Source: Pseudomonas paralcaligenes
Lineage (GTDB): Bacteria; Pseudomonadota; Gammaproteobacteria; Pseudomonadales; Pseudomonadaceae
Assembly: GCF_019655855.1 (NCBI RefSeq)
Contig: NZ_BPFX01000016.1
Coordinates: 1 to 64,000 of the forward strand
Reading direction: 5' to 3'
DNA length: 64,000 nt
Part shown: in pieces, positions 6,782 to 50,366 of the stretch
How the letters are laid out: every line of letters starts with the position of its first letter
Position numbering within the stretch: position 1 is the stretch's first letter
The notes under the pieces: generated by a model
Told to the model about the DNA's origin: nothing
Seen by the model: the letters and a program-made list of their open reading frames with translations, nothing else
Database searches by the model: none
Position numbers and translations under genes: made by a program

Positions 6782-7939
6782 TCAAGTGGGGGGCTTCGTC
6801 CAAGCGGGGAAGCGTAAGCCCTCCGCTTTCTTGTCCGGCACGATGAATCCCAAGCTATACCTAGCCCGTGTTATTGCAACGTACAGCTTGTTCTGCGTAG
6901 TTTCAGCGTCGGCAGGGAAAGGAGTAGCGCCGTCCAGAACGAAGTGCATCTGGCTGTCCGACGGTAGAATCAGCACACGATCAAAACTCAATCCTTTGCT
7001 GCCACCAAAGTTGTAGCAGCGAGCCTGAGTAGGAAGAATCGTTGTCCCAGAAGCTACGTTCCAGCGCAGTACCATTGGGTTATACGTCGCGATGTAGTCG
7101 GTGAGGTCCGATTGCTTGACGATGAAAACGCCAAGATGGTGGGTGAACTCAGGGGGGATATCGTCAACGGCTGACTTCGTTGCCTCGTAGACGCCCTTAT
7201 GCACCTCATCGGCGACCGCACAGATCGGTTGGATGCACCTCCAATTGAAGGTGAGCGCTTCTTCCTTGAAGCCCATAGATTTGAACTCTGCAATCTTCTC
7301 TGCAGTTGTTTGAGGCGCCTTGTGACCAAACGTTGTCTCGTACACAGTCTGTCGGAAGTCGCCCACACAGGTGATGGGTGGCTTCATTGCTTTGTTCAGA
7401 GCCTTGAGTACCTCGTAATCCCATCCAACTAGGTCTTGCACTTCGTCGAAGTAAACTTGGCTATAGATGTCGCCGAGGCGAATTGCAGCAGCATTCTTTG
7501 TAGCCTTCGAGAGTCGTGTCGCTAGCTTTGCCAAGAAGCCCGTGTGGACTTTCGTATAGCATTGAGTTAGAAAGTGGTTTGGATTATAGCTCTTGTCTTC
7601 CCGCTGCTCTTTGCGTCCGGGTAACATATAGGTTGATCCAGGCCTCAGATGAGGATTGCGGTCGTTGAAAAATACTCCGTCGATCCGCTGCGCAAACAGT
7701 GCTTGCTGATACGGCCTCACCATGTCTTCTAGGTAGAACGAGAACAGACCTTTCACCACGAACCGATCACTGTGCCTACCAAAAGCAGACAGAAATCGGC
7801 TTCTCAGTTCCTGCTGATTACTGGTGGTGTAGGTTACTACCAGCACCTTGCCCCCACGTTCAATCTCGGTAATCGACTCGGTGATGATCTTGTGGGTCTT
7901 CCCTGATCCGGCACCGGCTATGCATAATGTATTAGACAA
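6782..7939 (-). CDS. gajB: Gabija-like GajB: UvrD/PcrA-type helicase (short form)
   Basis: A 385-aa superfamily 1 helicase-like protein. Walker A is AGAGSGKT at residues 8-15, Walker B lies in VYFDEVQDL, followed by GDFRQTVY, FNWRC, GSKGLSFDRV and the C-terminal VAITRARYSLGF. The start must be TTG at 7939: it is 8 bp inside gajA, has GGTGAGG upstream, and the next ATG would lose the P-loop. In Gabija, GajB senses DNA ends or single strands and activates the GajA nuclease against phage. At 385 aa it is shorter than the ~490-aa type protein, so some helicase accessory domains are reduced. Another class 2 OLD partner helicase is the alternative. Confidence 0.75.
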   Translation of the reverse strand: MSNTLCIAGAGSGKTHKIITESITEIERGGKVLVVTYTTSNQQELRSRFLSAFGRHSDRFVVKGLFSFYLEDMVRPYQQALFAQRIDGVFFNDRNPHLRPGSTYMLPGRKEQREDKSYNPNHFLTQCYTKVHTGFLAKLATRLSKATKNAAAIRLGDIYSQVYFDEVQDLVGWDYEVLKALNKAMKPPITCVGDFRQTVYETTFGHKAPQTTAEKIAEFKSMGFKEEALTFNWRCIQPICAVADEVHKGVYEATKSAVDDIPPEFTHHLGVFIVKQSDLTDYIATYNPMVLRWNVASGTTILPTQARCYNFGGSKGLSFDRVLILPSDSQMHFVLDGATPFPADAETTQNKLYVAITRARYSLGFIVPDKKAEGLRFPAWTKPPT

Positions 7940-9593
7940 AGTTCAGTACCTCACCGAGGAAGGCGGGATACTTGAATGGTTCGGTGGTCTCAAACAACCT
8001 GATGGCTGAGTCGACCTTCTTCTTTCCCTTGCCATCGCCATCCGCGCTCTTGAACCAGTCTACGATAAAGGTACGCTTGCCATCGAATGTGGGCTCCGCA
8101 GCTAGCAAGTTATAGGTCTTGGTCGAGAGTACGATTTTTGCAAACGCTACCAGCTCTTTCTCCGATGTAGAGTTCGCCATGATCATGGCCGGCTCCAGCG
8201 AAAACTCATTGTTGTCTGTAGATGAGATAATTTTGATATTTGGATGCGCTGTGTATTCATTCTGGGCTTTGACGATGTTATTGGCGTAGTCACCATCATT
8301 GTCCCGCAGTATATTCACTGCAGTTCCAATCTCTTTGCCAATCTCGATGAATGTCTTGAAGCCTACGCCGCGTACTACGATGATGTCGATCCCATCCTGT
8401 TCAGGCAGGCGGCCCTTATTGTTATCCTGATAGAATCTTTTTAGAACTAGCTCATCAGACGGCCCTTCGACCAATACAACCTTTTTGGACAACGCGACGC
8501 GCAGAGTATCGTAGCCTGGTAGCCGTTTGAGCATTTTCACAACGTCTTTGTCTAAGAGGTGTAGTCGCTGATACGAATTATTGAGTAAGCAGATCTTGTC
8601 AATGCTCAACTTATTTAGCACATACGAACTGTGGGTGGTAAGGAACAGTTGCTTGCCGTTTCGCTGATCTTCGATGTCGTGTACAAGCTTGCTCAGTTCG
8701 ATATGGGATAGGTGATTTTCTGGCTCCTCCATCATCACAAGGTCAATGTCTTTTGACTTGTTGTGGAGGGCTAGTTTAATCTGCACCTTGCTTTGCTCAC
8801 CCTTTCCAATCATGTGGAAAGGTACGGCATTCACCTCTAGCTGCAAACCATTCTGAAGTGCACCGGCCGGCATCGTGCTAGCGGCAATGGTCAATTTCTT
8901 ATCGGTAATTTTGTTGTCGGAATCCAAGTCTCTATTGACTGTCTTTACCTCGTCTGTTTCGTTGAAAGACTGCAGTGTTTCACGGTAGTTGAGGCTCAAG
9001 CGGTACTCTTCGTCCTTCTTGAGGGCGGTATTCAGGACATTCGAAATGTACTGATTCTTTCCGAAGGTGGGGTGGATGCGGGTTGGGTCGATATAGAGCG
9101 CACGAAATTGCTTGGTCATTGGCTTTATGACGTTCCAAGCAAAATCCATCCACTCGACTTTGTAGAACTCCACTGGGATGCTGGTTATCGGGGCGCCAGC
9201 AGCCAGATAGTCTCGGTACGCATCTGTGAAGTCTGGATCGAAGCTCGCTTTGACCTGAACTCCTTGAGCATCTTTCAGCAGGCTGTTATTTGTGCCTCGG
9301 TAATCAGGCACGTTCCTCATATACGCCTCGATCACGAGAACTGGCAAGTCTGCTGGGGTCTTTGGGGAGGCTAGGAAGGCAGCGACCGCGTCGCTGTTGA
9401 ATAGATCGGGAGAAAATTCATTGCTGAACGGTCGGCCACGATACTGGAAGTTAAGTACGATTTCCAAAGCTTCCAATATCGTGCTTTTGCCCGCATTGTT
9501 GTCACCAACGAAGATATTTACATCCTCGTTGAATTCAAAATGTTGATCTTTGAATTTTTTGAAATTGAGCAACCGAAGCGATTCAACGAGCAA
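7932..9593 (-). CDS. gajA: Gabija-like GajA: OLD-family ATPase-TOPRIM endonuclease
   Basis: A 553-aa protein with an N-terminal ABC-type ATPase and a C-terminal TOPRIM nuclease. Walker A is GDNNAGKST (30-38), a signature-like GKGEQSK (264-269) precedes Walker B LVMMEEPENH (285-294), and the H-loop is TTHSS (319-323). TOPRIM acids are E376 in VEGPSDE and D431/D433 in RDNDGD. Length and domain order match GajA (about 578 aa). Start is TTG 9593, supported by AGAGGGAG 8 bp upstream. It overlaps the helicase gene, as class 2 OLD nucleases do with UvrD-like partners. GC is clearly below that of mutS, suggesting transfer. Predicted role: anti-phage DNA cleavage. Confidence 0.85.
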   Translation of the reverse strand: MLVESLRLLNFKKFKDQHFEFNEDVNIFVGDNNAGKSTILEALEIVLNFQYRGRPFSNEFSPDLFNSDAVAAFLASPKTPADLPVLVIEAYMRNVPDYRGTNNSLLKDAQGVQVKASFDPDFTDAYRDYLAAGAPITSIPVEFYKVEWMDFAWNVIKPMTKQFRALYIDPTRIHPTFGKNQYISNVLNTALKKDEEYRLSLNYRETLQSFNETDEVKTVNRDLDSDNKITDKKLTIAASTMPAGALQNGLQLEVNAVPFHMIGKGEQSKVQIKLALHNKSKDIDLVMMEEPENHLSHIELSKLVHDIEDQRNGKQLFLTTHSSYVLNKLSIDKICLLNNSYQRLHLLDKDVVKMLKRLPGYDTLRVALSKKVVLVEGPSDELVLKRFYQDNNKGRLPEQDGIDIIVVRGVGFKTFIEIGKEIGTAVNILRDNDGDYANNIVKAQNEYTAHPNIKIISSTDNNEFSLEPAMIMANSTSEKELVAFAKIVLSTKTYNLLAAEPTFDGKRTFIVDWFKSADGDGKGKKKVDSAIRLFETTEPFKYPAFLGEVLNFV

Positions 9594-24792: not shown

Positions 24793-26043
24793 TCAGGCTG
24801 CCAACATCTCGGGTGTGTGCTGAACATGCTTGGCCATGTTCTGCATGCCTTCCCAGATTCGCTCCAGCTCTCTGGGCGATTCCGAATCTATCCATCGGGC
24901 GTACACCTTCACCAGCATGGAATAGTCGCTGTGGCCCATTTGGTTGGCGATGAACGCCAGGTTGCCACGTGCCGTCAGGTTCCAGCAGGCGTAGGTATGT
25001 CGGGTCTGGTAGGGCGGGCGCGGCCGGATACCCGAGCGGCGGATCAGGTTGGCCCATTTGCTGTTCCAGGCGCTTGGCACGAAGTAGTCGTTGACGACTT
25101 GCTTGCGCGCCTGGGTCTTCGGCGACAGCAGCACCCGTACCCGGTCGGTGCGGGACTCATGACGGTTGAGCCAGACCTGCAGGTCCGCCGCCTTGCGCTG
25201 TTCGGCATCGGCGACCAGCACCTGCAGGGCCTCGCGTGCCGGCGGGTACAGCAGCACAGTGCGCTCCTTCTTGGTCTTGGGCACCTTGAAGGTGGCCGAT
25301 TGCGTGATCGAGCGCCGGACTCGGACTTTGCTGAAGTCCGGTGCCACGTCTTCAACAGCCAAGGCCAGTAGTTCGCCAGGGCGCAGGCCGGCGTAGACCG
25401 CCAGGGTGACGGCCGCCTTGTCGATGGGATGCAGGCACCCTTTCCCGATGAGTGCCTCGTACTCTTCGAAAGTGAGCGGATCGGGTTCCTTGCTGCTCTT
25501 GGTGAAGCGGATGCAGTGTTTGCCGAGCTGCCCGCAATAGCCGTTGTTCTCGCACCAGTAGAGGAAGCCCGCGAATGTAGCGAGGTAGTGGTTGACCGTC
25601 GAAACCGCACGCGTGGCAATCAGATCCACCCGTAGCTGCTGAATATCCTCGGGTAGCAAGGTATTGATCAGGCGGTTACGGCCGATGAGTTCCAGGCAGG
25701 CGTTCAACGCAATTTCGTAGCGAGACTCCGTCTCCGGAGTGATATCCACTGCCTTCAGCGGCTTGTAGCGATCACACAGCTCGTCCAGGCGTTTGCCGGT
25801 AACGGCCAGGGTTTCCGCCGGACGGGAGTGAGGGAAGTAGTCGGCTTCGTTGTAGGTGCCGGATTTCAGGGCGAACAGGGCGGCGCTGCGTAGACCGGCC
25901 GCGTGCTTGATGTTGGCCTTGGTGGGCTCGATGCCCAGGGTATGCCGATGGCGAACACCCTTGTACATGAAGTACACGCGGATCGAGTGCCCATGGATTT
26001 CCACGCCTGTGTAGCCTGTCTTCCTGCTTTCTCTGCCCACCAT
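24793..26043 (-). CDS. int: Tyrosine-family integrase of the ICE-like element
   Basis: A 416-aa site-specific recombinase. An N-terminal arm-binding region (GVEIHGHSIRVYFMYKGVRH) precedes a SAM-like core-binding domain and the catalytic domain: R221 (GLRPGE), K256 (VPKTKKERT), R348-H349 (YQTRHTYA), H371 (GHSDYS) and nucleophile Y381 (VYARW). It marks the left end of the element; the excisionase-like gene lies behind it on the same strand. Integration target is not evident: no tRNA gene or att repeat was identified at either side. Confidence 0.9.
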   Translation of the reverse strand: MVGRESRKTGYTGVEIHGHSIRVYFMYKGVRHRHTLGIEPTKANIKHAAGLRSAALFALKSGTYNEADYFPHSRPAETLAVTGKRLDELCDRYKPLKAVDITPETESRYEIALNACLELIGRNRLINTLLPEDIQQLRVDLIATRAVSTVNHYLATFAGFLYWCENNGYCGQLGKHCIRFTKSSKEPDPLTFEEYEALIGKGCLHPIDKAAVTLAVYAGLRPGELLALAVEDVAPDFSKVRVRRSITQSATFKVPKTKKERTVLLYPPAREALQVLVADAEQRKAADLQVWLNRHESRTDRVRVLLSPKTQARKQVVNDYFVPSAWNSKWANLIRRSGIRPRPPYQTRHTYACWNLTARGNLAFIANQMGHSDYSMLVKVYARWIDSESPRELERIWEGMQNMAKHVQHTPEMLAA

Positions 26044-31256: not shown

Positions 31257-31271
31257 TGTACTAGTATTTTT

Positions 31272-31307
31272 TGACGCTAACTCTACAAATTTGTAGAGTT
31301 AGCGTCA
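31272..31307 (+). promoter_or_regulatory. 36-bp perfect palindrome ending on the chrB start codon
   Basis: TGACGCTAACTCTACAAA (31272-31289) is followed immediately by its exact reverse complement (31290-31307). The final A is the first base of the chrB ATG. It may be a ChrB operator, an mRNA hairpin over the start codon, or both. No space exists for a normal ribosome site outside the palindrome. Confidence 0.8.
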
Positions 31308-32257
31308 TGAGTACTTGGCTTGCTCTCATCCTCAGCCTTCCTACGGGGAACGCGACCGTCAGACAACGGGCCTGGCGGGCACTCAAGGCATCCGGCGCGG
31401 CGGTGCTGCGCGATGGCGTTTATCTGATGCCAGACCGCGCCTCCTGCCGTGCCCTGCTGGAAGAACTGGCGGCCGATGTTCAAAGTGGCGACGGAACCGC
31501 ACTGGTACTGAGAAGCGAGGAACCCGAAGGGGCTGACTTCACTGGCCTGTTCGATCGAGGCGACGACTATGCAGCGCTGTTGAAGGATGTGTCAGTCGCC
31601 CGGATGGCACTGACCCCGGACACGGTTCAAGACACGATCAAAGTCGCTCGCAAGCTGCGTAAGAGCTTCTCTGCGATCAGAGAGATCGACTTTTTCCCTG
31701 GCGAAGCGCAGCGGCAGGCCGACACGGCATTGCGGGATCTCGAACTGGCGACGACGCGCGTGCTCTCGCCCGACGAGCCGCAGGAAGTGGCAGGAGAGAT
31801 TCCCTCCCGCCTGATCGCCGATTACCAGCAGCGCGTATGGGCAACCCGGCAACGTCCCTGGGTGGATCGCCTCGCTAGCGCCTGGCTGATTCGCCGTTTT
31901 ATTGACCACCAAGCGCACATCCTGTGGCTGGCCAGTCCAGGCGACTGTCCGCCAGACGCCTTGGGTTTCGACTTCGACGGTGCGGCCTTCAGTCATGTTG
32001 GAGGCCGCGTCACTTTCGAGATACTCGCCACCAGTTTCAACCTAAATCATCCGGCCCTGATACGCCTCGGACAACTCGTGCATTACCTCGATGCCGGTGG
32101 GGTTCAACCTGCCGAGGCGGTGGGCGTGGAAAGCGTGCTGGTGGGCCTGCGCGACGCCATCACTGACGATGACCAACTCTTGGCTAGCGCCTGTGGCGTA
32201 TTCGACGGCCTGCTCGCGGCTTTTGAGAAACAAGAGGAACAGAGAAATGAAAAATGA
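31307..32257 (+). CDS. chrB: ChrB, chromate resistance protein/regulator
   Basis: A 316-aa ChrB. The N-terminal part (TWLALILSLPTGNATVRQRAW, then WRALKASGAAVLRDGVYLMP) is the ChrB_N domain with PaaX-like regulator character; the C-terminal part (TRQRPWVDRLASAWLIRRFID, then GDCPPDALGFDFDGAAFSHV and TFEILATSF) is ChrB_C. ChrB senses chromate and controls chrA. The ATG at 31307 ends the palindrome; a 12-codon longer form would begin inside it and is rejected. It overlaps chrA by ATGA. Confidence 0.92.
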   Translation: MSTWLALILSLPTGNATVRQRAWRALKASGAAVLRDGVYLMPDRASCRALLEELAADVQSGDGTALVLRSEEPEGADFTGLFDRGDDYAALLKDVSVARMALTPDTVQDTIKVARKLRKSFSAIREIDFFPGEAQRQADTALRDLELATTRVLSPDEPQEVAGEIPSRLIADYQQRVWATRQRPWVDRLASAWLIRRFIDHQAHILWLASPGDCPPDALGFDFDGAAFSHVGGRVTFEILATSFNLNHPALIRLGQLVHYLDAGGVQPAEAVGVESVLVGLRDAITDDDQLLASACGVFDGLLAAFEKQEEQRNEK

Positions 32258-33630
32258 ATCAGACATCCTCCCTTGCCAATGACGAAGACTGCGAAAGCAC
32301 CCATACACCACCTCAACCCGTGAGGTTCCGCGAGGCTTTCCTGTTCTGGCTCAAACTCGGATTCATCAGCTTCGGCGGTCCGGCCGGACAGATCGCCATC
32401 ATGCACACGGAGCTGGTGGAACAACGACGCTGGATCAGCGAGAGGCGCTTTCTGCATGCGCTGAACTACTGCATGCTGCTGCCAGGCCCGGAGGCGCAGC
32501 AGCTTGCCACCTACATCGGTTGGCTGATGCACCGCACCTGGGGAGGCATCGTGGCCGGCGTGCTGTTCGTGCTGCCTTCGCTCCTCATTCTGATCGGGTT
32601 ATCGTGGGTTTACATTGCCTTCGGTGATGTGCCGGCGGTGGAGGGACTGTTCTACGGCATCAAGCCAGCAGTGACTGCCATCGTCGTCCAGGCTGCGCAT
32701 CGAATCGGCTCGCGCGCACTCAAGAACAACTGGCTTTGGGGCATTGCGGCGGCATCCTTCGTGGCGATCTTCGCATTCAATGTGCCGTTCCCGGCCATTG
32801 TTGCCGCCGCGGCATTGATCGGCTTCATGGGGGGCCGCATCGCTCCCGAAGTATTCAAGGCGGGCGGCGGCCACAGTCAGGCCGTAAAGTCCTTCGGCCC
32901 CGCACTGATCGACGACGACACGCCCAGGGCACCGCACACCAAATTCCGCTGGAGCAGTCTGGCACGACTGATGGTGATCGGTGCTTTACTGTGGCTCATT
33001 CCCATGGGCCTGTTGACCGCCAGCTTGGGGTGGGAACATACGCTGACGCAGATGAGTTGGTTCTTCACCAAGGCAGCTCTGCTGACCTTCGGTGGTGCCT
33101 ACGCGGTACTGCCCTACGTACACCAGAGTGCTGTCGGCTATTACGGCTGGCTCACCCCGACACAGATGATCGACGCGCTGGCGCTGGGTGAAACCACTCC
33201 CGGCCCGCTGATCATCCTCGTGGCGTTCGTCGGCTTTGTCGGTGCCTATGTCCAGACCGTATTCGGCCCCGATGCGTTGTTCCTGGCCGGAGCCGTGGCT
33301 GCGATACTGGTGACTTGGTTCACCTTCCTGCCATCGTTCCTATTCATTCTGGCGGGCGGTCCCTTGGTGGAATCGACCCACGACGATCTCAAGTTCACTG
33401 CGCCTCTGACGGCCATCACCGCCGCCGTGGTGGGCGTCATCCTGAAACTGGCGCTGTTCTTCGGCTATCACGTTCTCTGGCCGGAAGGCTTTGAGAGTGG
33501 CTTCGATTGGATCTCCGCCCTGATCGCCATCGGTGCCGCTATCGCGCTGTTTCGCTTCAAACGCAACGTCATTCACGTCATCGCGGCCTGCGCTGTCACC
33601 GGGCTGCTCGTGAAAATGTTCATCCCATGA
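32254..33630 (+). CDS. chrA: ChrA, chromate efflux transporter
   Basis: A 458-aa CHR-family membrane transporter made of two homologous halves. The first half begins FREAFLFWLKLGFISFGGPAG and contains FLHALNYCMLLPGPEAQQLA; the second begins MSWFFTKAALLTFGGAYAVLP and contains LALGETTPGPLIILVAFVGF. These duplicated FGGP/PGP motifs are diagnostic for long-chain ChrA. It exports chromate. Translationally coupled to chrB by a 4-bp overlap. Confidence 0.95.
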   Translation: MNQTSSLANDEDCESTHTPPQPVRFREAFLFWLKLGFISFGGPAGQIAIMHTELVEQRRWISERRFLHALNYCMLLPGPEAQQLATYIGWLMHRTWGGIVAGVLFVLPSLLILIGLSWVYIAFGDVPAVEGLFYGIKPAVTAIVVQAAHRIGSRALKNNWLWGIAAASFVAIFAFNVPFPAIVAAAALIGFMGGRIAPEVFKAGGGHSQAVKSFGPALIDDDTPRAPHTKFRWSSLARLMVIGALLWLIPMGLLTASLGWEHTLTQMSWFFTKAALLTFGGAYAVLPYVHQSAVGYYGWLTPTQMIDALALGETTPGPLIILVAFVGFVGAYVQTVFGPDALFLAGAVAAILVTWFTFLPSFLFILAGGPLVESTHDDLKFTAPLTAITAAVVGVILKLALFFGYHVLWPEGFESGFDWISALIAIGAAIALFRFKRNVIHVIAACAVTGLLVKMFIP

Positions 33631-34945: not shown

Positions 34946-36969
34946 ATGAACGCGATTACCCACACCGAAACCCGCGCCATCCACACCGCTGCTGCGCTGG
35001 AAGTGGCCGACCCAACCAAGAACCTGCTGCTGTTGTCGCTCGGGCAGCTGCTGCCTCGCCGTTCCAAACGCAACGCGCGCACCACACCGCGCCTGTCCAT
35101 CGACGAGCTGGCCGCGAGTATTTTCCGCATCGGCCTGCTGCAAAACCTCGTCGTCATCCTCGCCGCCGATGGCAAGCATTACGAGGTGGTGGCCGGCGAC
35201 CGCCGTCTGACCGCCTTGAAGCTGCTGGCGAAGAAGAAGCGCATCGCCGCCGACTTCGAGGTGCCGTGCCTGCTGGTGCCCGACGCCTCGGCCCGCACCG
35301 TCAGCCTCGCCGAGAACCTGCTGCGCGAGCAGATGCACCCGGCCGACCAGTTCGAGGCATTCGCCGCGTTGGTCAAGGAAGGTCGCCCTGTCGAGGATAT
35401 CGCCGCCGACTTCGGCGTGACCCCGCTGGTGGTGCAGCGCCGCTTGAGGCTGGCGAACGTCTCGCCGCGCCTGATGGCGGATTACCGGGCCGGCAGCGTC
35501 ACCCTGGAGCAACTGATGGCCCTGACCATCACCGATGACTATGCCGCCCAGGAGGCCGCGTTCTACGAGGCTCCGGAGTGGCAGCGTGGCGCGTCGGCGC
35601 TCCGGGCTCGCCTGACGGAGCGTGAAATTGATGTGCGTCATCCGCTGGTGGGCTTCGTTGGGTTGGAGGCTTACACGGCGGCGGGTGGCGGCATGCGCCG
35701 CGACCTGTTCGCCGACGACGACAGCGGCACCTACCTCACCGATGCCGCGCTGCTGGAGACGCTGGTGCGCGGCAAGCTGGAGGCACTGGCCGAGGATGTG
35801 CGTGCCGAGGGCTGGGCCTGGGTGGAAGCTGTGCCGCAGTTCAGCTACGCGGATCGGCAGGCCTTCCAGAGCGCGTCGCGCATCCGCCGCGAACCGACCA
35901 CCCGTGAGGCGCGGCGTATCGCCTCGCTGCAAGCCCGGCTGGAAAAGGTCGATGCCGAGCTGGAGGACGCCTACGACACCGAGGACGAAGACAAGGTGCC
36001 GGTGTTGGAGCAGCGGCGCGGGCAGGTGACCGCCGAGCTGCACGCCGTGGCTGAGTCCTTGCGCGGCTATACCCCGGAAGTGCTCAGCGTGGCCGGCGCT
36101 GTGGTCACCATCGACCGCAGCGGCGAAGCGGTGATCCATCGCGGGCTGTTGCGCGAGGCCGAGGCTAATGCGCTGCGTACCCTGGAGCGTCTGCGCCAGG
36201 GCATCGGCGACAACGAAGGCTCGAGCGACGAGGTGGGCGAGGGCAACGAGCAACCCAGGGCAGCAAGTCTGTCCGACCGGCTGGCCCAGCGCTTGAGCGC
36301 CCATCGTACGTGGCCCAGCAGTCGCAGGCCGCGTTGGCGGCGCTGGTGCATGGCATGGTGCGCACCGCCCTGCAGGTCGAGCACTATGGCGACAGCATGC
36401 CGCTCGGTGTGCGCCTGACCGTACGGGATCGACTCGATAGTTTGGCCCCGGACTGGCCGGAGTCGCCCGCCGCCGTGGCGCTGCATGAGCTGCGTCAGGC
36501 CTGGGGCGAGAAACTGCCGCAGGACGGCGCCGAGCTGTTCGCCGTGTTACTGGCGATGCCCCAGGACGAGCTGGTGCGGCTGCTCGCGGCATGCGTGGCG
36601 GTGACCGTCGACGTGGTCACGCCGCGTGCGATCCAGCATCAGCCCGGAGCCGAGCTGGCGCAGGCCGTGGGACTGGACATGGCCGCATGGTGGAAGCCGA
36701 CCACCGTGGGCTACTTCAAGCATGTCGCCAAGGCGGTGATTCTGGAGGCGGTTGGTGAGTTCGCGCCGAAGCACGTCAATCGACTGGCCAAGCTCAAGAA
36801 AACCGACATTGCCAGCGAAGCCGAACGGCTGGTCGAAGGCACTGGTTGGATGCCGGCTGTGTTCATGACAGGACAGGGGGCGGAGGCGGAGGAAGTTCGG
36901 GAGGTGGCAGAGGAATCGCAGTCGACAGAGGCTGACGACGAGGCACACGGTCACACGTTGGCCGCATGA
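34946..36969 (+). pseudogene. parB: ParB/RepB/Spo0J-family partition protein, frameshifted
   Basis: The N-terminal ParB nuclease-like domain (LSIDELAASIFRIGLLQNLV, GKHYEVVAGDRRLTALKLL, SLAENLLREQMHPADQFEAF) and HTH (VEDIAADFGVTPLVVQRRLR) run in one frame to about 36315. The frame then shifts: DRLAQRLSAHRT continues as VAQQSQAALAALVHGMVRTA in the next frame to the stop at 36969. Restoring one base (ACGTG to ACGGTG) near 36310 gives a single ~675-aa protein, the expected size for ICE ParB. The interrupted reading frame may be a real mutation or a sequencing error. ATG 34946 follows a long leader. Confidence 0.8.
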
Positions 36970-37211: not shown

Positions 37212-37445
37212 CTAGTCCAGATCCAGGTGCTGAGCGATGTGCTCGACCAGCTTCAGGGGCTCGCGACTGTTTACGACAGTAAACATGAGGTCGCGTTTGC
37301 TGCGGGAGAGACGTTGGGAGCAACGCTTGGCGGTGGCTTGCACCGCTGCATCCGTGCCGTGAATCTTGGCTGCAAGCAGTAGTGCTATCGTCGCGTCAGT
37401 GAGGTTCACAGGCGTCTCATTGAGCTGGGGGAAGGGCGCCCGCAT
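37212..37445 (-). CDS. Hypothetical protein (up to 77 aa)
   Basis: VNLTDATIALLLAAKIHGTD, then AAVQATAKRCSQRLSRSKRD and EPLKLVEHIAQHLDLD: a basic helical protein without recognised domain. It may start at ATG 37445 or at a GTG 12 codons later. Located at the junction between ICE core and the secreted-protein cargo block. Confidence 0.45.
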   Translation of the reverse strand: MRAPFPQLNETPVNLTDATIALLLAAKIHGTDAAVQATAKRCSQRLSRSKRDLMFTVVNSREPLKLVEHIAQHLDLD

Positions 37446-37705
37446 TCTACGGCAGCCATGTTTGACGCGAAGGATTCATCGTCCAGAATTTTTACCGCAT
37501 GACGTCGATGCTCAGGAGGTCGCGGAGTCTGGATGGGGGTGTGCAAGGTGCTTTACCCGGGGCGGCAAGGCACATGATATCGCCGCTTTTGACCTGAGGT
37601 CGCTGTTGAGACAGGCAGCAACCGGCCAAAATCGGTCCGTAAATGGCGGCTATTGGCTGGCAGCTACCGTTACGCTTCGGAATGTGCGTACGTTTCAGAA
37701 ACGGC

Positions 37706-37727
37706 AAGGGCCGCTTTCGCGGCCCTT
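37706..37727 (-). terminator. Hairpin downstream of the MvaT-like gene
   Basis: AAGGGCCGC (37706-37714), loop TTTC, GCGGCCCTT (37719-37727); 9-bp perfect stem, 20 bp past the stop. The T-run is imperfect on the minus strand. Confidence 0.6.
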
Positions 37728-37746
37728 CGGTACAGGCTGGAAAAAC

Positions 37747-38103
37747 TTATTGAAGCCAGCTTTCCACTTTCTCGGCACCGTACTGCTCTTTCCAGGCTTT
37801 CAGCACCTTGTGGTTGCCACCTTTGGTTTCCACTATTTCACCGTTGTTCGGGTTTTTGTAGCGCTTGAGAGTTCGTTCCCTGCGTGCACCTTTCACGGAG
37901 GCTACAGCGCTCTTCTCGGCCTTAGGATCAAGCAGGGAAATGACGTTACGCAGTGAGTAGTTGTAGTCAGCCAGCAGGGCGCGGAGTTTGGTTTCAAACT
38001 CGATTTCACGCTTCAGTTTTTCGTCGCCCTTCAGGGCTTCCAGGCGCTTCTGCTGCTCAGCGATCTGAGCTTCGAGAGCTTTGTATTCTGCAATTATCGA
38101 CAT
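37747..38103 (-). CDS. MvaT/MvaU-family H-NS-like silencer (element-borne)
   Basis: A 118-aa protein with the MvaT layout: an N-terminal coiled-coil oligomerisation region (MSIIAEYKALEAQIAEQQKR, then LKREIEFETKLRALLADYNY), a basic linker, and the C-terminal AT-hook-like DNA-binding domain KRYKNPNNGEIVETKGGNHK then VLKAWKEQYGAEKVESWL. Chromosomal MvaT silences AT-rich foreign genes. This copy is on the integrative element beside a lower-GC block, so it may silence its own cargo or hetero-oligomerise with host MvaT. Confidence 0.9.
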   Translation of the reverse strand: MSIIAEYKALEAQIAEQQKRLEALKGDEKLKREIEFETKLRALLADYNYSLRNVISLLDPKAEKSAVASVKGARRERTLKRYKNPNNGEIVETKGGNHKVLKAWKEQYGAEKVESWLQ

Positions 38104-38198
38104 GGTAATTCCTAGTCCGATGCTAAGTGACTCTAGGATACATAGTAGAGGTCATGAAATTCAACCAGAAGCGAAGTGTAACGACAAGTAATGGGGGG

Positions 38199-39425
38199 TT
38201 ACTGAGTGCCTAAATAGCAATCCACATCACCTTCTGAGGGGAGGTTTCCAGGGTTGGATAGCGGCAAAACTTCTTTGTCTAGGAACTCCTCTACGCCGCC
38301 TTTGCCTGCCCAGGGTATCTTGTTAAACGAGAATTGGATGAGTTTGGCGGATGCCCAGACGGGGTTGTACTTCTGGAGCTCGCCATTTTCTAGCCATTTC
38401 GGGTGTATATCCGCGTGGGCGTGATCCTCAGCGATCTGGTTGACGTAGTTCCTAAAGGATACGATGTCTTTTCTCTCCCTGCTTAAAGGGTTGCAACCCA
38501 AGACCCTCTCTGTATGTGCGTCAGAGTAGGAGTCTTGCACCATGTGAAGTAGCGAGCCGAGGGCAATGTGCTTGATGCTCGCGGCATCTCTGGGGTCGCT
38601 GTAGGTGACCTGTGCTCTGGGCTTTCCTGAGGGCTTGTAGCTGCCAACCTTCCCAGAGAGGAACGAGGATTTCCATTCACCACCTGGTACTGGGTCAAAC
38701 AGGGCGCCAACAGTCCAGCCCTGTCTCTTGAGAGTGCTGGCAATGTCAGAGAAGGCCGACACTGCTGGGCCATCAATGGTCTCTTTGCCGAGCCTGTTTG
38801 AGGAAATGGATAAGGTGTAGGTGAACTCGGCCCACTTCATCATTTTGGCTTTAGTGTCGGCAGCAGTCTCGGACTGATCTGATGCCATGGCATGGATGAA
38901 CTGGAAGTCCCCAAAGTGGCTCCGATATAGCATCATCGGGGTGTCAGTGATCTTTACGCCTTTGCACTGAGGTTGTGCGCCGTCAACTTTGCACTTAGCT
39001 TGCAGCTGGGCGTCCTTGAACAGAGCATTCCACTGCAATGACCGTACGACATTTTGCCGCAGTAATGAGTCAGGATCGTCGTTCCATTCGCTTCCGAGTA
39101 CCAAGTCTCTGAGTATGCCGCTTTGCTTTAATTTTTCAGCGGTGGTTTGCGCAACTCCACCTCTGGCCCCCTCGGGGTTCACGTAGTAGTCGTACGCTAA
39201 AAGCGTAATGGTTTCGTGAACCGGGCGCTTCACTCCGGCGCTGAGGTTGGTGATGCGACACAGTGTGTCCTTTCCCCAGCAATCCACGTTGATAGGGTTC
39301 ATGTCGTACGCGCACACGCTGCCTGATGCTATGGCAGTGAGAGCAGCCAGCGTCATGGGGAGAATTCGAGTTTGGACAGGGTGGGCATTGCGGTGCGGCG
39401 AGGAGGCGTATGCGGCACGCTTCAT
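38199..39425 (-). CDS. Predicted secreted zinc-dependent phospholipase C/P1 nuclease-like enzyme
   Basis: A 408-aa protein with an N-terminal export signal (MTLAALTAIASGSVCA, cleavage expected near residue 39 after a long charged n-region). Likely metal ligands: H70 (VHETITLLAYDYY), D116-D119 (WNDDPD), H170/H178 (HFGDFQFIHAM) and H294-x3-D298-x5-H304 (HMVQDSYSDAH), then HAHAD. The H-x3-D-x5-H spacing equals His118/Asp122/His128 of Bacillus cereus phospholipase C. GAGGG precedes the ATG. Function as a phospholipase or nuclease is inferred. Low-GC relative to flanks; last gene of a four-gene set with exported products. Confidence 0.65.
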   Translation of the reverse strand: MKRAAYASSPHRNAHPVQTRILPMTLAALTAIASGSVCAYDMNPINVDCWGKDTLCRITNLSAGVKRPVHETITLLAYDYYVNPEGARGGVAQTTAEKLKQSGILRDLVLGSEWNDDPDSLLRQNVVRSLQWNALFKDAQLQAKCKVDGAQPQCKGVKITDTPMMLYRSHFGDFQFIHAMASDQSETAADTKAKMMKWAEFTYTLSISSNRLGKETIDGPAVSAFSDIASTLKRQGWTVGALFDPVPGGEWKSSFLSGKVGSYKPSGKPRAQVTYSDPRDAASIKHIALGSLLHMVQDSYSDAHTERVLGCNPLSRERKDIVSFRNYVNQIAEDHAHADIHPKWLENGELQKYNPVWASAKLIQFSFNKIPWAGKGGVEEFLDKEVLPLSNPGNLPSEGDVDCYLGTQ

Positions 39426-39567
39426 GAGCAGATCCCTCTAGGGTGATTTCCGTTTGGGATGTTTATAGCTCACGAGATGGCAATGTGCCTGCTTTAGCCC
39501 AAATTAAGGCTCTGCGCTGGACCTTTGGCTTCGGAGAAGTGGCTACTGCCTCGCCATGAGTCAACAG

Positions 39568-39915
39568 CTAAAGATTTCTTGGGGTAACGGCATTGTTATG
39601 CTCAATCACCTCAAGTAGAGATAGGACTGCATCTCGAAGATTTCGATCTGGATATTTAGTGCAAAATGAAATCAAGAAGAGTTCCTTTTGACTTCTGCTG
39701 AACATTTTTTGCACCCGATCATTCCACTCCGGTATCTCAGGATGAGAAGCGCTCAGAAATCCTTCAGCCCACACTGTTGAGTCATGCACGAGGGATGGTG
39801 TAGGGCTTTCGCTAAGAGTGGAGCAAGATGTGTCGCCTAGATTGATAGCCGGCTCCTGAGGGCCGGCTATCAACAGCGTTGGCGCTATCAAAAGCGCCAG
39901 TACGAGGTACCTCAC
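39568..39915 (-). CDS. Small exported protein, HdeA/Rap1a-like
   Basis: A 115-aa protein with a signal peptide (MRYLVLALLIAPTLLIAGPQ). The mature part has two cysteines (DTSCSTL and ISFCTKYPDRNLRDAV) around a VWAEGFLSASHPE helix, resembling small periplasmic HdeA/Rap1a-type proteins. Start is GTG 39915, overlapping the stop of the 59-aa gene (GTGA), which implies translational coupling. Function unknown. Confidence 0.55.
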   Translation of the reverse strand: MRYLVLALLIAPTLLIAGPQEPAINLGDTSCSTLSESPTPSLVHDSTVWAEGFLSASHPEIPEWNDRVQKMFSRSQKELFLISFCTKYPDRNLRDAVLSLLEVIEHNNAVTPRNL

Positions 39916-40091
39916 AGCCAGATTTTTACAGGCGGTGGGTTGATGTTTACCATCATGTTTTGCGTGATGCAGGGGAAATACTCAGAAGGGCCTGGGCACA
40001 TGCGAATCATCGCAGAGGAGTAACCTGCAAATGACGTCGATGGCAAAAGGGCGTATCCCAAAATGGTTGCAAGCAGAACTGCCTTCTTCAT
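39912..40091 (-). CDS. 59-aa exported microprotein
   Basis: MKKAVLLATILGYALLPSTS begins a clear signal peptide ending SFA-GYS. The mature peptide of ~37 aa has two cysteines (MIRMCPGPSEYFPCITQN) and ends PPPVKIWL. AAGGA lies 7 bp before the ATG. It begins 14 bp after the TPR gene and its stop overlaps the GTG of the next gene, so it belongs to the same operon. Not similar to anything I recognise. Confidence 0.7.
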   Translation of the reverse strand: MKKAVLLATILGYALLPSTSFAGYSSAMIRMCPGPSEYFPCITQNMMVNINPPPVKIWL

Positions 40092-40105
40092 AACTTGATC
40101 CTTCC

Positions 40106-41011
40106 TTAGATTTCTTCGTCAAGCGGAATGTAGACCTGATTCAGCACGCTGGTTTCGTCGGTGCTCGCTTCCTGGCTCTTCTGTCTCAATGCACTATCAG
40201 GCCTCGCTGCCTTGTGAATTTGCTGCATGGCAATCTTCAGGCTTTCTGTCGGCGACTTTTGAATAGCCTCTTCTGCGAGAGAATCCGCTCCAGCTTCATC
40301 GCCTTGATAGCGTCTAACGTGACTCTTCGCCATCAGAATCTCGACTTCCATAATGGGCCTCAACTCTGGCTTTTCCCATTGGAAGCTCTCATTCGCAGTT
40401 AGCGCTTTATTAAGACTTCTTTCGGCAGCTATGAAGTCGCCCTTGAATGTCTGGATTTGCCCCAGTTGAGCATAAAACTGAGGAGCGCCAGTTTTTCCGA
40501 GCTTGATGGCGTTGCGCGCAGCGGCCTCAGCTTTGCTCAAAGCCATAGTTTGCTCGGTGGCGTTGAGCTGCGTAGCTTGTTGAGTGTAGGTCAGTGCCAG
40601 TTTGCTATAGATTTCTGCAAGCCTGCTCTTGTCGGCACCAGCCAAAGACGCCTCAAGAGTTTCCGTCGCCTTATCGTAGCTGCCTAATCGAATATAGCTC
40701 GTACCGAGATACTCGTTGATATCACTATCTCTTTTGGCCGCAGGGACTTTCTTGTTGATATACGCGATTGCCTCTGCATCACGGCGGAGCTCCGAGAGGC
40801 AGCCTGCCTTCAACGTGATGTAGGTTTTCCACTCAGGGGACTTTTGTGAGGGCTCAGCGATAGCAGCCAGTTTGGGCAGGACTTGGTTACAGGACTTGAA
40901 CCAGCCTTGGGTTTGTACCTCTTTAGCAATGTCCTGAACTGGGCTGGCATAAGAGAGGTTTTGAGCAGCCATAGCTGCAAGTGCAATCGCACTTAGAAGT
41001 GGGACTTTCAT
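40106..41011 (-). CDS. Exported TPR-repeat protein
   Basis: A 301-aa protein with signal peptide (MKVPLLSAIALAAMAAQNLS, cleavage near YAS) followed by tetratricopeptide-like helices: INEYLGTSYIRLGSYDKATE, RLAEIYSKLALTYTQQATQL, APQFYAQLGQIQTFKGDFIA. TPR proteins mediate protein contacts; here it would do so in the periplasm. First gene of the leftward set 41011-39568; AAGGTGA precedes the ATG. Partner unknown. Confidence 0.75.
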   Translation of the reverse strand: MKVPLLSAIALAAMAAQNLSYASPVQDIAKEVQTQGWFKSCNQVLPKLAAIAEPSQKSPEWKTYITLKAGCLSELRRDAEAIAYINKKVPAAKRDSDINEYLGTSYIRLGSYDKATETLEASLAGADKSRLAEIYSKLALTYTQQATQLNATEQTMALSKAEAAARNAIKLGKTGAPQFYAQLGQIQTFKGDFIAAERSLNKALTANESFQWEKPELRPIMEVEILMAKSHVRRYQGDEAGADSLAEEAIQKSPTESLKIAMQQIHKAARPDSALRQKSQEASTDETSVLNQVYIPLDEEI

Positions 41012-42018
41012 TACTTCACCTTCCATAGCTGTGCATGATGTCCGTTGGCGCTAACAGAGGGCCAACGGAGCCGACTATAGCAGGCTCATTGATAACCGCA
41101 AATAATGCTGATTCGCATTTATGATTGTGGCCATCAGGAGCCGAGGAGGGGGGGCGATCAGCGTGGGTAGCCGCTCGAGTCACCAGAGTAATCCCAGGCT
41201 TCCCGCGCGGGCAGGTCTACTGAAAGCGATGTGGAGCGATCAAGAGCCCTGGGCATCCAGTTGCCTTGGACAAGGACTGCCCTCGATCGATTACGCCTGA
41301 AAAATAATGATTCGAGCGACGCAACTGGTCGTCATTGCGATGTAGATTTTTCAGTGAGGTGAATGCGTTTTGTAGCCCCGTTACCGGATTCTGCCAAGCG
41401 GTAAAGGGTGGCGCACCAGTAACGGTGCGCCATGGCAATCGGTGGTTGCTGGTGCAGATGCTGCCCAGCCACAACGGATGGAGCGCGGTAAGGGTACGCC
41501 CCGGCTTGCTGCGGCAGGTTGTGCAGGCGCGTATCGTCCTCGACGCTGACGGTTCGTTGTTCCAAGCCCCGAAGGATGGGCCACGGACATGCCGCACGGC
41601 CGCGCTAAAGCGCTTCCAGTCCACGCCTCAAGCCTGTTGCCGAGGACGCTGCAAGGGCGTTCTCGCCCGTCGTCGGGGGTTGGCCTTGCCTGCGTCAGGG
41701 TGCAGGCCGTTGAAGCCTTCGCGCGGGGATACCGAGTCGGCCCTGTCTCCTTCCGGGGAGAATCGGCCCGGTGCGTCCTTGGCTTGTTGTGAATCCTGGC
41801 GGTGGCACGGCTGTGCCTCGGGCTTCAAGGCCGCAACCGTCCGGCGCAAACAATTTCCCTTCCGCTGCGCGAATTCCTCGCCCACAAATTCTGTGCGCCT
41901 CCCGGTCCTCCACGCTGTTGCGGCCGCTGCGCGATGCAGCCAGCCCGTCCATCGCCTGCCGGATCACAACAAGGACGCGATGGGCGCGACCTTGGTTACC
42001 CCGGAAGGAGAAATCATC
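41012..42018. other. 1-kb non-coding region between cargo block and DUF736 gene
   Basis: The left ~300 bp hold the promoter of the TPR operon and AT-richer sequence. From about 41330 the sequence is the GC-rich element leader ending at GGAAGGAG before DUF736. Long open frames here cross into DUF736 in frame but have no homology-like content, so they were not called. Confidence 0.5.
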
Positions 42019-44907: not shown

Positions 44908-45753
44908 GTGGCCACCGCCATGTCCAGTTCTGCACCGGAGCGGGAACAGCTCGACCTGTTCCGCGCCTTGCCGGGCGACATGGCGCCGCGCGACAGCCAG
45001 GACCTGATGGCCTACCCGTTCTTCTCGCTGGCCAAGTCGCGGCGCACCACGCCGATCGATTTCCAGTCCGGCGGCGTCACCGTGCGCGTGGAGGGCTCGC
45101 GGGAACGCGGCATCGCCACGATCTGGGATGCCGACGTGCTGATCTGGGCGGCCAGCCAGATCGTCGCGGCGCGCGACGCGGGCCTGCACCCGTCGCGCCT
45201 GATGCGCGCCACGCCCTACGAGATCCTGCGCTTCATCGGGCGCGGAGTGTCGCTGCGCGACTACCAGCGCCTCAAGGCCGCCTTGGATCGCCTGCAGTCG
45301 ACCACGGTGGCCACCTCCATCCGCGAGACCAGCGGCCGGCGCCTGCATCGTTTCTCCTGGATCAACGAGTGGAAGGAGCTGGCCGACGCTGGCGGCACTC
45401 CGCTGGGCATCGAACTGATCCTGCCGGACTGGTTCTACGCGGGCGTGCTGGACGCCGCCCTGGTGCTGACCATCGACCCAGCGTACTTCCGGCTCACCGG
45501 TGGCATCGAACGCTGGCTGTACCGCCTGGTGCGCAAGCATGGCGGCAAGCAGCCGGACGGCTGGCAGTTCGACTTCCGTCACCTGCACCGCAAGTCGGGC
45601 AGCACGGCCAGACTTTGCGACTTCGCTTGCGACCTGCGCGCCCTGGTGGCGCGGCAGTCGTTGCCCGGCTACAAGCTCGGCATCGAGCGCATACCGGAGG
45701 CCAACGTGGAGTTGCTGACGTTCCGGCCCGTGTCGCCCACGGCACGGGGATAA
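44908..45753 (+). CDS. repA: Replication initiator protein RepA of the element
   Basis: A 281-aa RepA/RPA-type initiator (plasmid replication initiator family): MAYPFFSLAKSRRTTPIDFQ, ATIWDADVLIWAASQIVAAR, ATPYEILRFIGRGVSLRDYQ and GIERWLYRLVRKHGGKQ. It would initiate theta replication of the excised circle. Start is GTG 44908, with ATG 44920 as an alternative. Three iteron-like repeats follow 24 bp after the stop, supporting an initiator role. Confidence 0.88.
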   Translation: MATAMSSSAPEREQLDLFRALPGDMAPRDSQDLMAYPFFSLAKSRRTTPIDFQSGGVTVRVEGSRERGIATIWDADVLIWAASQIVAARDAGLHPSRLMRATPYEILRFIGRGVSLRDYQRLKAALDRLQSTTVATSIRETSGRRLHRFSWINEWKELADAGGTPLGIELILPDWFYAGVLDAALVLTIDPAYFRLTGGIERWLYRLVRKHGGKQPDGWQFDFRHLHRKSGSTARLCDFACDLRALVARQSLPGYKLGIERIPEANVELLTFRPVSPTARG

Positions 45754-47995: not shown

Positions 47996-48386
47996 TGGTC
48001 TCCGATTCGCTGCTGCTGCCGTGTCGTCGCACGTGAATCGCGGGCGCATCCGCACCACACTTCGCGCAACATCCGGCGCAGCGGTCCTGCGTGCAGATGA
48101 CTTGCCTCGAACGTGCGGCCATTGGCGCATTCGCAGACAGGCTGGCTGCTGGTGTAGCAGAGCCGCCTGGTCGCCGAGGCCAGGGGAGCAGGGCAGAGCA
48201 AAATCGGAAGGCAAGACAAAAGGGGGCGGCACCTGCTCGCCCGCAACACCAGTCTGCACGTGGGGGGAGGAGCGGCACGGCGCGGCGTCACCGCCGTGCT
48301 GTGTGCGACGCGCAACACGCGCCGATGCCGGCATACCCGTGTGCTTCACACGCCAGGACACGCCCTGGCTTGCCGAGGGAACAGCC
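47996..48386 (+). other. 390-bp gap before the relaxase with a candidate oriT hairpin
   Basis: No gene is supported. GCACGGCG (48275-48282) and CGCCGTGC (48292-48299) form a perfect 8-bp inverted repeat with a 9-bp centre, 88 bp upstream of the relaxase ATG. Relaxase genes often lie beside their oriT, but no nick-site motif could be matched. Confidence 0.35.
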
Positions 48387-50366
48387 ATGACCGACCGGCG
48401 TGACGACGATTTCCGCATTCGGCCCAACGCCCCGAAGAACCGGGGCAAGGGCTTTGTCTCCAAGGTGCTCAAGCAGGTCGGCAAGGCCGGTGGCAAGTCG
48501 GCTGTACGGCGTCCGGCGCTGGCCGGTGGCAAGGGGCAACACGCCGGTCAGCGACCCGGCTCGCGCCTGGGGCGTGGGCACACGGCGGCGCGCTTCGCGG
48601 GCACCTCACTTACATCACTCTCGCGCCGGTTGACCATCAAGACCCTGCTGGTCAACCAGCGCCAGGCCAGCCCACGGTCGCTGGCCAAGCACCTACGCTA
48701 TATCGAGCGCGACGGCGCCGGCCGTGATGGCGAACCGGGGCGAGCCTACGGGGCGCAAGCTGACAAGGCTGATCTTGGTGCATTCAGGGAGCGCTGCCAG
48801 GACGACCGGCACCATTTCCGCTTCATCGTCGCGCCAGAAGACGGTGCAGAGTTGGACGACCTGCGCACCTACACCCGGCATCTGATGGGGCGCATGGAGG
48901 CTGATCTGGGCACGCGGCTGGACTGGGTGGCGGTGGATCACTGGAACACCGATAACCCACACACCCACATCGTCCTGCGCGGGCGCGACGACACCGGCAA
49001 GGATCTCATCATCGCCGGCGATTACATCGCCCACGGCTTCCGCCACCGGGCCGCAGAATTGGCCACCGAATGGCTGGGGCCACGCACCGAACTGGAGATC
49101 CAGCAGACCTTGCAGCGCGAGGTGGAGCAGGAGCGGTGGACTAGCCTGGATCGCACACTGAAACGTGAGGCTGGCGACGATGGCCTTATACATGTCGAAC
49201 GCCTTAGCGAGCCTCGTCTGCAACGCCAGCGTCTGCTGCTGATCGGCCGCCTGCAACGCTTGCAGCGCCTGGGGCTGGCCGACGAGACACCGCCCGGCAC
49301 CTGGGCCGTCCAAGCGGACGCGGAAAAGACCATGCGCGCCCTGGGCGAGCGTGGCGACATCATCCGCACCCTGCAGCGCGCCATGGGCGGTCAGCCGCGC
49401 GAGTTGGCGGTGTTCGAGCCGGGAGAGGAGGGGCGTACCATGATCGGCCGGGTGACCGCCAAAGGGCTGGCCGACGAGCTGCGCGACCGGGGTTACCTGG
49501 TCATCGACGGTATCGACGGCAAGGCTCATTACGTCGCGCTCAACGCCCGCGACGAACTGGCGAGCTACCCCACAGGATCGGTGGTGGAGGTACGTGGCTC
49601 GGCCGAGATACGCGCGGCCGACCGTACCATTGTCGCACTGGCGAACGATGGCTTGTATCGCACCGACCATCACCTGGCGGTTGCCCGGGGCCAGGCAAAG
49701 GCTGGCCGCGATCCGCAGGAGGTCGTGGCGACTCACGTCCGCCGACTGGAAACACTGCGTCGTGCCGGTATCGTGGAGCGTGTGGCTGAAGGGCTGTGGA
49801 AGGTGCCGGACGATTTGCCCGAGCGTGGCCGCCAGTACGACGCGCAGCGCCTAGGGGGAGTTGCTGTGGAACTGAAATCGCACCTGCCGATTGAACAGCA
49901 GGCCCGTGTGATCGGCGCCACCTGGCTGGACCAGCAACTGATCGGCGGTGGGAGAGGGCTGGGTGACTTCGGATTTGCTGGTGAGGTGAAGCAGGCCATG
50001 CAGCAGCGCGCCGATTTCCTGATCGAGCAGGGGCTGGCCGAGAGGCAAGGTCGGCGTGTGATCTTGGCGCGTAACCTGCTGGCGACGTTGCGCAATCGAG
50101 AGCTGGCCCAGGTCGCTCAGGAGATCGCCGCCGAAACGGGATTGGAGCATTGGCCTGCACAAGAGGGGCAGAGGATGACCGGTATCTACCGGCGCAGCCT
50201 CATGCTTGCCAGTGGGCGTTACGCTGTTTTGGATGACGGTAAAGGGTTTAGCCTAATGCCTTGGAGATCCATCATCGAGCAACGACTCGGGCAAAAGATT
50301 GCTGCGACCCCGCGTGGTGGCGATGTGTCTTGGGAGATCGGGCGGATGCGAGATATAGGAGTCTAA
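48387..50366 (+). CDS. Relaxase (VirD2/TraI-like, DUF3363)
   Basis: A 659-aa relaxase. The N-terminal catalytic domain has KHLRYIERDGAGRDGEPGRA (motif with Tyr105, a possible nucleophile), HHFRFIVAPEDGAEL and the three-His metal motif DHWNTDNPHTHIVLRG (H185, H192, H194). The C-terminal DUF3363 part runs to GDVSWEIGRMRDIGV, so it looks complete. It nicks oriT and pilots DNA in conjugation. GAGGGA lies 6 bp before ATG 48387. The expected coupling protein and trb genes do not follow. Confidence 0.92.
   Translation: MTDRRDDDFRIRPNAPKNRGKGFVSKVLKQVGKAGGKSAVRRPALAGGKGQHAGQRPGSRLGRGHTAARFAGTSLTSLSRRLTIKTLLVNQRQASPRSLAKHLRYIERDGAGRDGEPGRAYGAQADKADLGAFRERCQDDRHHFRFIVAPEDGAELDDLRTYTRHLMGRMEADLGTRLDWVAVDHWNTDNPHTHIVLRGRDDTGKDLIIAGDYIAHGFRHRAAELATEWLGPRTELEIQQTLQREVEQERWTSLDRTLKREAGDDGLIHVERLSEPRLQRQRLLLIGRLQRLQRLGLADETPPGTWAVQADAEKTMRALGERGDIIRTLQRAMGGQPRELAVFEPGEEGRTMIGRVTAKGLADELRDRGYLVIDGIDGKAHYVALNARDELASYPTGSVVEVRGSAEIRAADRTIVALANDGLYRTDHHLAVARGQAKAGRDPQEVVATHVRRLETLRRAGIVERVAEGLWKVPDDLPERGRQYDAQRLGGVAVELKSHLPIEQQARVIGATWLDQQLIGGGRGLGDFGFAGEVKQAMQQRADFLIEQGLAERQGRRVILARNLLATLRNRELAQVAQEIAAETGLEHWPAQEGQRMTGIYRRSLMLASGRYAVLDDGKGFSLMPWRSIIEQRLGQKIAATPRGGDVSWEIGRMRDIGV

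Follow-up and report, generated by a model that had tools for sequence, protein, structure and literature searches.

A low-GC insert on a Tn4371-like element of Pseudomonas paralcaligenes appears to join a conserved TPR-micropeptide gene pair with a separate putative exported hydrolase

Do neighboring genes for exported proteins on a mobile element form one system, or several that happen to lie side by side? The question is raised by a stretch of 64,000 nucleotides from Pseudomonas paralcaligenes (contig NZ_BPFX01000016.1; referred to as the window, meaning the whole stretch at its full length). Here, a Tn4371-like integrative and conjugative element (ICE) carries genes for a tetratricopeptide repeat (TPR) protein, a 59-residue micropeptide, an HdeA-like protein and a putative metalloenzyme. 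The first-pass annotation had treated these four genes as a single set, possibly an effector-immunity, phage-exclusion or envelope-attack module. We find that the TPR and micropeptide genes lie close together as a conserved pair in four loci, and that the enzyme is a separate gene occurring elsewhere without the TPR unit. Our preferred reading, to which we give a probability of roughly 0.55, is that the insert is ICE cargo composed of two independent exported units and a silencer, the first unit being a TPR-peptide complex and the second a separate hydrolase.

Five genes lie in the insert, all on the minus strand. In the order of transcription, they encode the TPR protein (301 aa, 40106..41011), the micropeptide (59 aa, 39912..40091), the HdeA-like protein (115 aa with cysteines C31 and C85, 39568..39915, GTG start), the enzyme (408 aa, 38199..39425), which resembles zinc-dependent phospholipases C (PLC) and S1/P1 nucleases in its residues, and a MvaT/MvaU-family xenogeneic silencer (37747..38103; NF041859, 176 bits against a cut-off of 75). 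The silencer gene is the fifth and stands outside the region 38199..41011 described earlier. The micropeptide gene starts 14 nt after the TPR stop codon and overlaps the 115-aa gene by 4 nt, whereas 142 nt precede the enzyme gene and 95 nt separate it from the MvaT/MvaU gene. Given this spacing, only the first three genes are coupled, in agreement with the earlier description. A hydrophobic N-terminal stretch is found in the first four proteins, with a best nine-residue Kyte-Doolittle mean of 2.1–2.9 versus 0.8 in the MvaT protein, and a simple heuristic places a plausible signal-peptidase site in each of the four. Hydrophobicity and cleavage site together support the prediction that all four are exported. 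The insert has a GC content of 52%, compared with 61.5% across the whole window, and the picture of four leftward, low-GC reading frames with signal-like N-termini is confirmed to this extent.

Co-occurrence across loci separates the enzyme from the rest. Among 398 genomes of the genus, 12 contain some match to the enzyme, namely three full-length close copies (G000, G318, G390), a fragment in G311 and eight distant relatives. The TPR protein is present in two (G000, G317), and both proteins occur together only in the window's own genome. We located four other full-length enzyme loci, in P. viridiflava (L004), Pseudomonas sp. RGM2987 (L005), P. mediterranea (L006) and G390 (L031); L005 and L008 very likely belong to one genome and were counted once. 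None of the four holds a TPR, 59-aa or 115-aa gene within the 14–17 kb compared, and the same is true of the shorter stretches around distant enzyme relatives. Conversely, the enzyme is absent from all three other TPR-peptide loci (G317, an Azotobacter chroococcum plasmid and G490), each covered over 13–20 kb. Because the enzyme and the TPR-peptide pair do not co-occur elsewhere, we divide the insert into two separate units. In G311 (L030), an 87% identical MvaT copy adjoins an enzyme remnant consisting of the last 34 residues, so the enzyme-MvaT junction exists apart from the TPR unit.

These counts bear directly on the idea of a single four-part effector-immunity or envelope-attack system, in which the enzyme would be the toxin and the small cysteine-containing proteins its immunity or delivery partners. 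Adjacency on one strand, export-like N-termini and a common insert would all agree with such a system, yet neither the other enzyme loci nor the other TPR-peptide loci contain the expected counterpart, and a 142-nt gap precedes the enzyme gene. Searches of Pfam, NCBIfam, PADLOC (at E 0.1) and PHROGs returned generic TPR matches only, none of them from PADLOC or PHROGs, which agrees with the remark that no named system of this composition is known. Moreover, the micropeptide is conserved rather than diversified and is therefore unlike an immunity protein. We consider the four-part system highly improbable and largely refuted by the lack of co-occurrence; the proposals that the four genes form one set and that the small proteins are partners of the enzyme are abandoned.

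What remains of interest in the insert is then, as far as its sequence can tell, a conserved micropeptide with a TPR partner, both predicted to be exported. Homologues of the micropeptide lie 3' of the TPR gene in G317, the A. chroococcum plasmid and G490, where their start codons follow the TPR stop by 10, 11 and 12 nt, respectively. The homologues differ by in-frame insertions and deletions, and in three comparisons the aligned codons differ 21/20/37, 26/19/31 and 20/16/36 times at positions 1/2/3. Since the length changes keep the frame and the differences concentrate at third codon positions, we regard the 59-aa reading frame as coding. Five aligned peptides have M1, K3, A22, G23, S25, S26, A27, C32, C41, N45, V48 and N51 in common, which gives the motif AG-x-SSA-M/I…C…C…N-x2-V…N. 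The mature form is predicted to begin at G23 (GYSSAM...C...C...VNINPPP) and to comprise about 37 residues. For the same three locus pairs, the peptides are 57, 48 and 56% identical, compared with 49, 34 and 35% for the TPR proteins. Taken together, these comparisons indicate that the 59-aa protein is a true conserved microprotein, with export predicted.

The TPR protein matches TPR_8 and TPR_2 of Pfam above the cut-off, and a 13-row alignment of its family revealed conserved Cys41 and Cys71 and a C-terminal YIPLDEE tail. This family comprises 11 clusters in the protein database and that of the peptide four, the window's own counted in each case; the pair is rare. G490 provides the strongest test of the pairing: its TPR protein is 26% identical to that of the window, and a leave-out peptide profile finds the G490 peptide with an E-value of 8.3e-9 among 6566 open reading frames (692,561 bases, in which several loci overlap). 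Two metagenomic clusters of the TPR protein have longest contigs of the same lengths (2825 and 2910) as those of two clusters of the peptide, which points to linkage but is no proof of it. The four pair loci cover at least two genera, that of the window and Azotobacter, and three if genus g33 is not Azotobacter. Weak peptide-profile matches in five other g33 genomes (E 0.019–0.091) were taken as noise. The match in L080 reached 9.8e-4 and 4.1e-4 in smaller searches; L080 and L081 have neither an upstream TPR gene nor the common peptide motif, and L082–L084 were scored only. In the g38 TPR relatives at L040, L041, L043 and L044, we notice that a C-terminal PLDK/SLDE-like tail is kept and that no micropeptide is detected after them.

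The pair is found on an ICE in the window, on a plasmid in A. chroococcum, and beside Rz-like spanin and phage integrase genes in G317; these contexts fit accessory mobile-element cargo. A small, export-like peptide with two cysteines and a sporadic distribution on mobile elements might be a secreted antibacterial peptide or signal, with the TPR protein as its periplasmic immunity protein or receptor. We regard this as unlikely: the signal is only Sec-like, inspection by eye found no exporter gene common to the loci, and the strong conservation of the peptide contrasts with toxin-immunity pairs, which usually diversify. Alternatively, the TPR protein might handle the micropeptide as the precursor of a modified, metal-binding product akin to the bufferins, a class of ribosomally synthesized and post-translationally modified peptides. 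The signal-like N-terminus, the two conserved cysteines and the conserved C-terminal motif would suit such a precursor. However, no modifying enzyme common to the loci was seen in the annotation or by eye (no dedicated search was made), and the TPR gene alone is always adjacent, which leaves this possibility very improbable.

The HdeA-like gene is a looser, optional third member of the TPR-peptide unit, present in two of the four loci. In G317, the gene for a homologue again overlaps the end of the peptide gene by 4 nt, whereas none was found in the Azotobacter plasmid or G490 pair loci. Further homologues in G013 and G186 occur without the TPR-peptide pair. The label itself stands only in part. 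The G317 homologue passes the cut-off of PF06411 (23.0 bits against 22, E 1.1e-4), the G186 homologue scores 13.2 bits and the G013 homologue gives no match, while the window protein has no Pfam match even at E ≤ 10. The putative link to HdeA comes from a single homologue that narrowly exceeds the Pfam cut-off. A Methylorubrum plasmid gave one weak match to the 115-aa protein (E 8e-3). At L029:8900-9857, we observed a 49% identical homologue beside a small gene with a membrane-anchored-looking product, and no TPR or peptide gene was detected nearby.

The enzyme of the second unit belongs to a family of 50 clusters, its own counted. Alignment A1 contains 44 of them, six partial or short ones being left out. 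Conservation was scored on a 52-row set made up of the window's enzyme, seven distant relatives and those of proteins P0002 to P0049 that exceed 330 aa. Residues D116, H178, H294, D298, H304, H335 and D339 are each kept in 52 of the 52 rows, and H70 in 51 with one gap. Alternative ligand positions are H170 (50/52) in place of H178 and D117 (51/52) in place of D116. The motifs H294-x3-D298-x5-H304 and WNDDPD, which had been noticed in the window, are conserved in the family, and the eight side-chain ligand positions occur in the order of PLC and S1-P1 enzymes; as a residue pattern, the suggested PLC-like character is upheld.

No Pfam, NCBIfam or PHROGs family was assigned to the enzyme. PF00882 matched 2 of the 44 family members (best E 0.059) and two of four distant relatives (E 0.073 and 0.074), all below the cut-off; a phospholipase comparison set yielded three loci that lacked a long open frame bearing H-x3-D-x5-H, and the set was not used. 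The best hhalign segment between the enzyme and S1-P1 proteins is the metal motif in register. Staphylococcal toxin chains appeared among the solved-structure matches of the enzyme profile (E 0.46–0.58) and were dismissed as chance. On plasmids, we found distant relatives only, 25–28% identical, on three plasmids of Acidovorax, Diaphorobacter and Pseudoalteromonas. We think that the enzyme probably works like members of the S1/P1-PLC superfamily. It is filed as a separate, unproven branch because it has no evident N-terminal tryptophan and the profile comparisons are not significant.

Comparison with related ICEs defines the insert, of about 3.9 kb. By blastn and GC content, its edges fall approximately at 37477..41406, with no strand assigned. 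In L064, homology to the window stops at 37476 and restarts at 41492, and the 102 nt between represent an empty site. In L065, it stops at 37476 and restarts at 41407, with different cargo between. Since the site is empty in one element and occupied by another gene in the other, we take the region as one insertion, and it looks like a single low-GC insertion in a Tn4371-like ICE. The earlier view of uncharacterised exported cargo on an ICE is supported by this backbone, with export predicted by heuristic. The gene in L065 (9690-10994) encodes an unrelated 434-aa protein, which occupies the same ICE hotspot in another genome.

Of 199 genomes of the genus, 22 contain a match to the RepA-like protein of the element, the window's own among them, and we compared regions from 12 of the 21 other RepA-positive genomes. 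The order from ParB through RepA is kept in eight of these ICEs, and the fetched stretch of the other four contains no ParB. None of the 12 carries any of the five insert genes. This absence weighs on the idea of entry or phage exclusion, in which the periplasmic TPR protein, the peptide and the HdeA-like protein would prevent competing DNA of phages or conjugative elements from being taken up. The ICE, plasmid and prophage-like contexts and a periplasmic location, as given by the heuristic, would suit exclusion. The phage records, however, have no match for the TPR protein or the enzyme (the 59-aa and 115-aa proteins were not searched there), viral contigs gave no confirmed match for the peptide, TPR protein or enzyme, and PADLOC gave none. 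Exclusion therefore seems to us a rather poor candidate.

We return to the reading of two exported units and a silencer, and propose how they may act. Both the TPR protein and the micropeptide would reach the periplasm by export and associate with each other in that compartment. The conserved cysteine pair of each protein probably forms a disulfide, and the micropeptide may occupy the TPR groove as a ligand or subunit. A bound ligand is favored over a free toxin because the short mature peptide is strongly conserved at its two ends. The HdeA-like protein could serve as a helper chaperone, and the mobile element would profit from changes that the TPR-peptide complex makes to the cell envelope. 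For the enzyme, the likeliest role is that of a secreted phosphodiester hydrolase with a multinuclear metal site, either a phospholipase or a nuclease, which would act on its own outside the cytoplasm. The MvaT protein probably silences the AT-rich insert until it is needed. More tentatively, we speculate that the 59-aa protein represents a so far unrecognised family of two-cysteine exported micropeptides, which would act in complex with a dedicated periplasmic TPR receptor and travel on ICEs, plasmids and prophages in an undescribed two- or three-gene envelope-modifying cassette.

Several observations weigh against this explanation. Of the 12 TPR matches examined, 4 come with the peptide. Seven TPR matches, from four g38 genomes, have no peptide in the fetched stretches or, by profile, genome-wide, and a TPR relative on the Azotobacter plasmid NZ_CP010421.1 has no detectable peptide there or at the start of the record. 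In view of these eight relatives, the TPR protein is not always found with the peptide. The G490 pair sits among genes that look, by eye, ordinary and chromosomal, so not every copy of the pair is evidently mobile. With regard to the enzyme, hhalign comparisons with three of a set of five S1-P1 proteins are not significant (P 0.33 and 0.31), and its profile has no significant match among solved structures. The TPR relative of NZ_CP010421.1 (L086:2344-3129) is split over several frames and lies at the end of the record.

The backbone around the insert contains the gene set of the Tn4371 family on one element, with integrase, ParB, RepA, ParA, relaxase and a mating-pair match, the last being a TrbE-family match alone (C16:81549, further along the same contig, E 2.9e-8). 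The tyrosine integrase lies at 24793..26043 on the minus strand (PF00589, PF12167). To the left of the insert are the ParB-like protein (34946..36418, plus strand, PF02195; syntenic in 8 of 12 comparators) and the last backbone gene, encoding a DUF7740 protein (37212..37445, minus strand, PF24886), which is 93% identical in L064 and L065. The RepA-like replication initiator (44908..45753, PF10134) and the DUF3363 relaxase (48021..50366, PF11843, with a weak Relaxase PF03432 match below the cut-off) are on the plus strand. Genes for a RadC-like protein, ParA, DUF2840 and chromate resistance are also present, the last comprising the regulator ChrB and a chromate transporter (31271-33630). Left of the integrase gene, an AAA ATPase with an OLD-like TOPRIM domain (7932-9593) is a candidate defence-type nuclease. 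An attachment site TTTTTCAT would be expected at the ends of a Tn4371-family element.

With respect to regulation, three promoter-like sites were found, none on the strand of the genes, and no terminator-like site was found. A Fur-like operator 5' of the TPR gene was considered and rejected: against a Fur consensus, G317 matches at 13 of 19 positions and the window at 11 of 19, and 38 of 2000 random 300-mers of the window reach 13. The best 24-mer common to both upstream regions is no better than shuffles, 48 of 60 of which reach it. These Fur-box-like sequences lie at L028:8860-8878 and at about 41099-41121 of the window, and do not exceed chance. The open literature in PubMed Central yielded nothing on the peptide motif or on the combination of exported peptide, TPR protein and HdeA-like protein.

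Exported microproteins are difficult to detect and readily overlooked, as illustrated by the gene table of the A. chroococcum plasmid, possibly incomplete, which shows no entry at the peptide. The mature peptide, some 37 residues long and conserved in more than one genus beside one kind of TPR gene, makes with its partner a concrete pair that can be put to the test. Among the zinc phosphodiesterases, the family of the enzyme may form a remote branch that is not yet listed. Splitting the insert into two units also averts a false toxin-immunity story.

Comparison with known systems places each component differently. The MvaT/MvaU protein is, as far as tested, an ordinary NF041859 member like other silencers on mobile elements. 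The 115-aa protein resembles the acid chaperones HdeA and HdeB (PF06411) in its small size, export-like N-terminus and two conserved cysteines. It differs in falling below PF06411 detection and in its link, in two of four loci, to a TPR-peptide pair.

By residue pattern, the known relatives of the enzyme are the S1/P1 nucleases and zinc-dependent phospholipases C (PF02265, PF00882). In the S1-P1 nuclease SmNuc1, three zincs are bound by His32, Asp71, His88, His141, Asp145, His151, His175, Asp179 and, at the N-terminus, Trp27 (PMC11705217). The putative ligands H70, D116, H178, H294, D298, H304, H335 and D339 of the enzyme follow the same order, with three identical spacings (H-x3-D, D-x5-H and the later H-x3-D). 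Other spacings differ, with 71-88 corresponding to 116-178 and 151-175 to 304-335, and the heuristic cleavage between VCA and YDM would leave a tyrosine in place of the N-terminal tryptophan. The Het-C domain, tied to the same fold by borderline profile evidence and similar residues, is a precedent for proposing a remote superfamily member from such residues (PMC3482391).

The element is like Tn4371-family ICEs in its integrase, RadC-like protein, ParB, RepA, ParA, DUF3363 relaxase and TrbE-family match. These ICEs are described as sharing one scaffold into which variable segments are inserted (PMC2789088, PMC11448139) and as mosaics with cargo hotspots (PMC2789088). The window differs by its cargo, which none of the compared ICEs carries. 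Finally, the TPR protein has its repeats in common with generic TPR proteins, its best solved-structure matches being MamA, and is distinguished by a family of its own, a conserved cysteine pair and a YIPLDEE-type tail.

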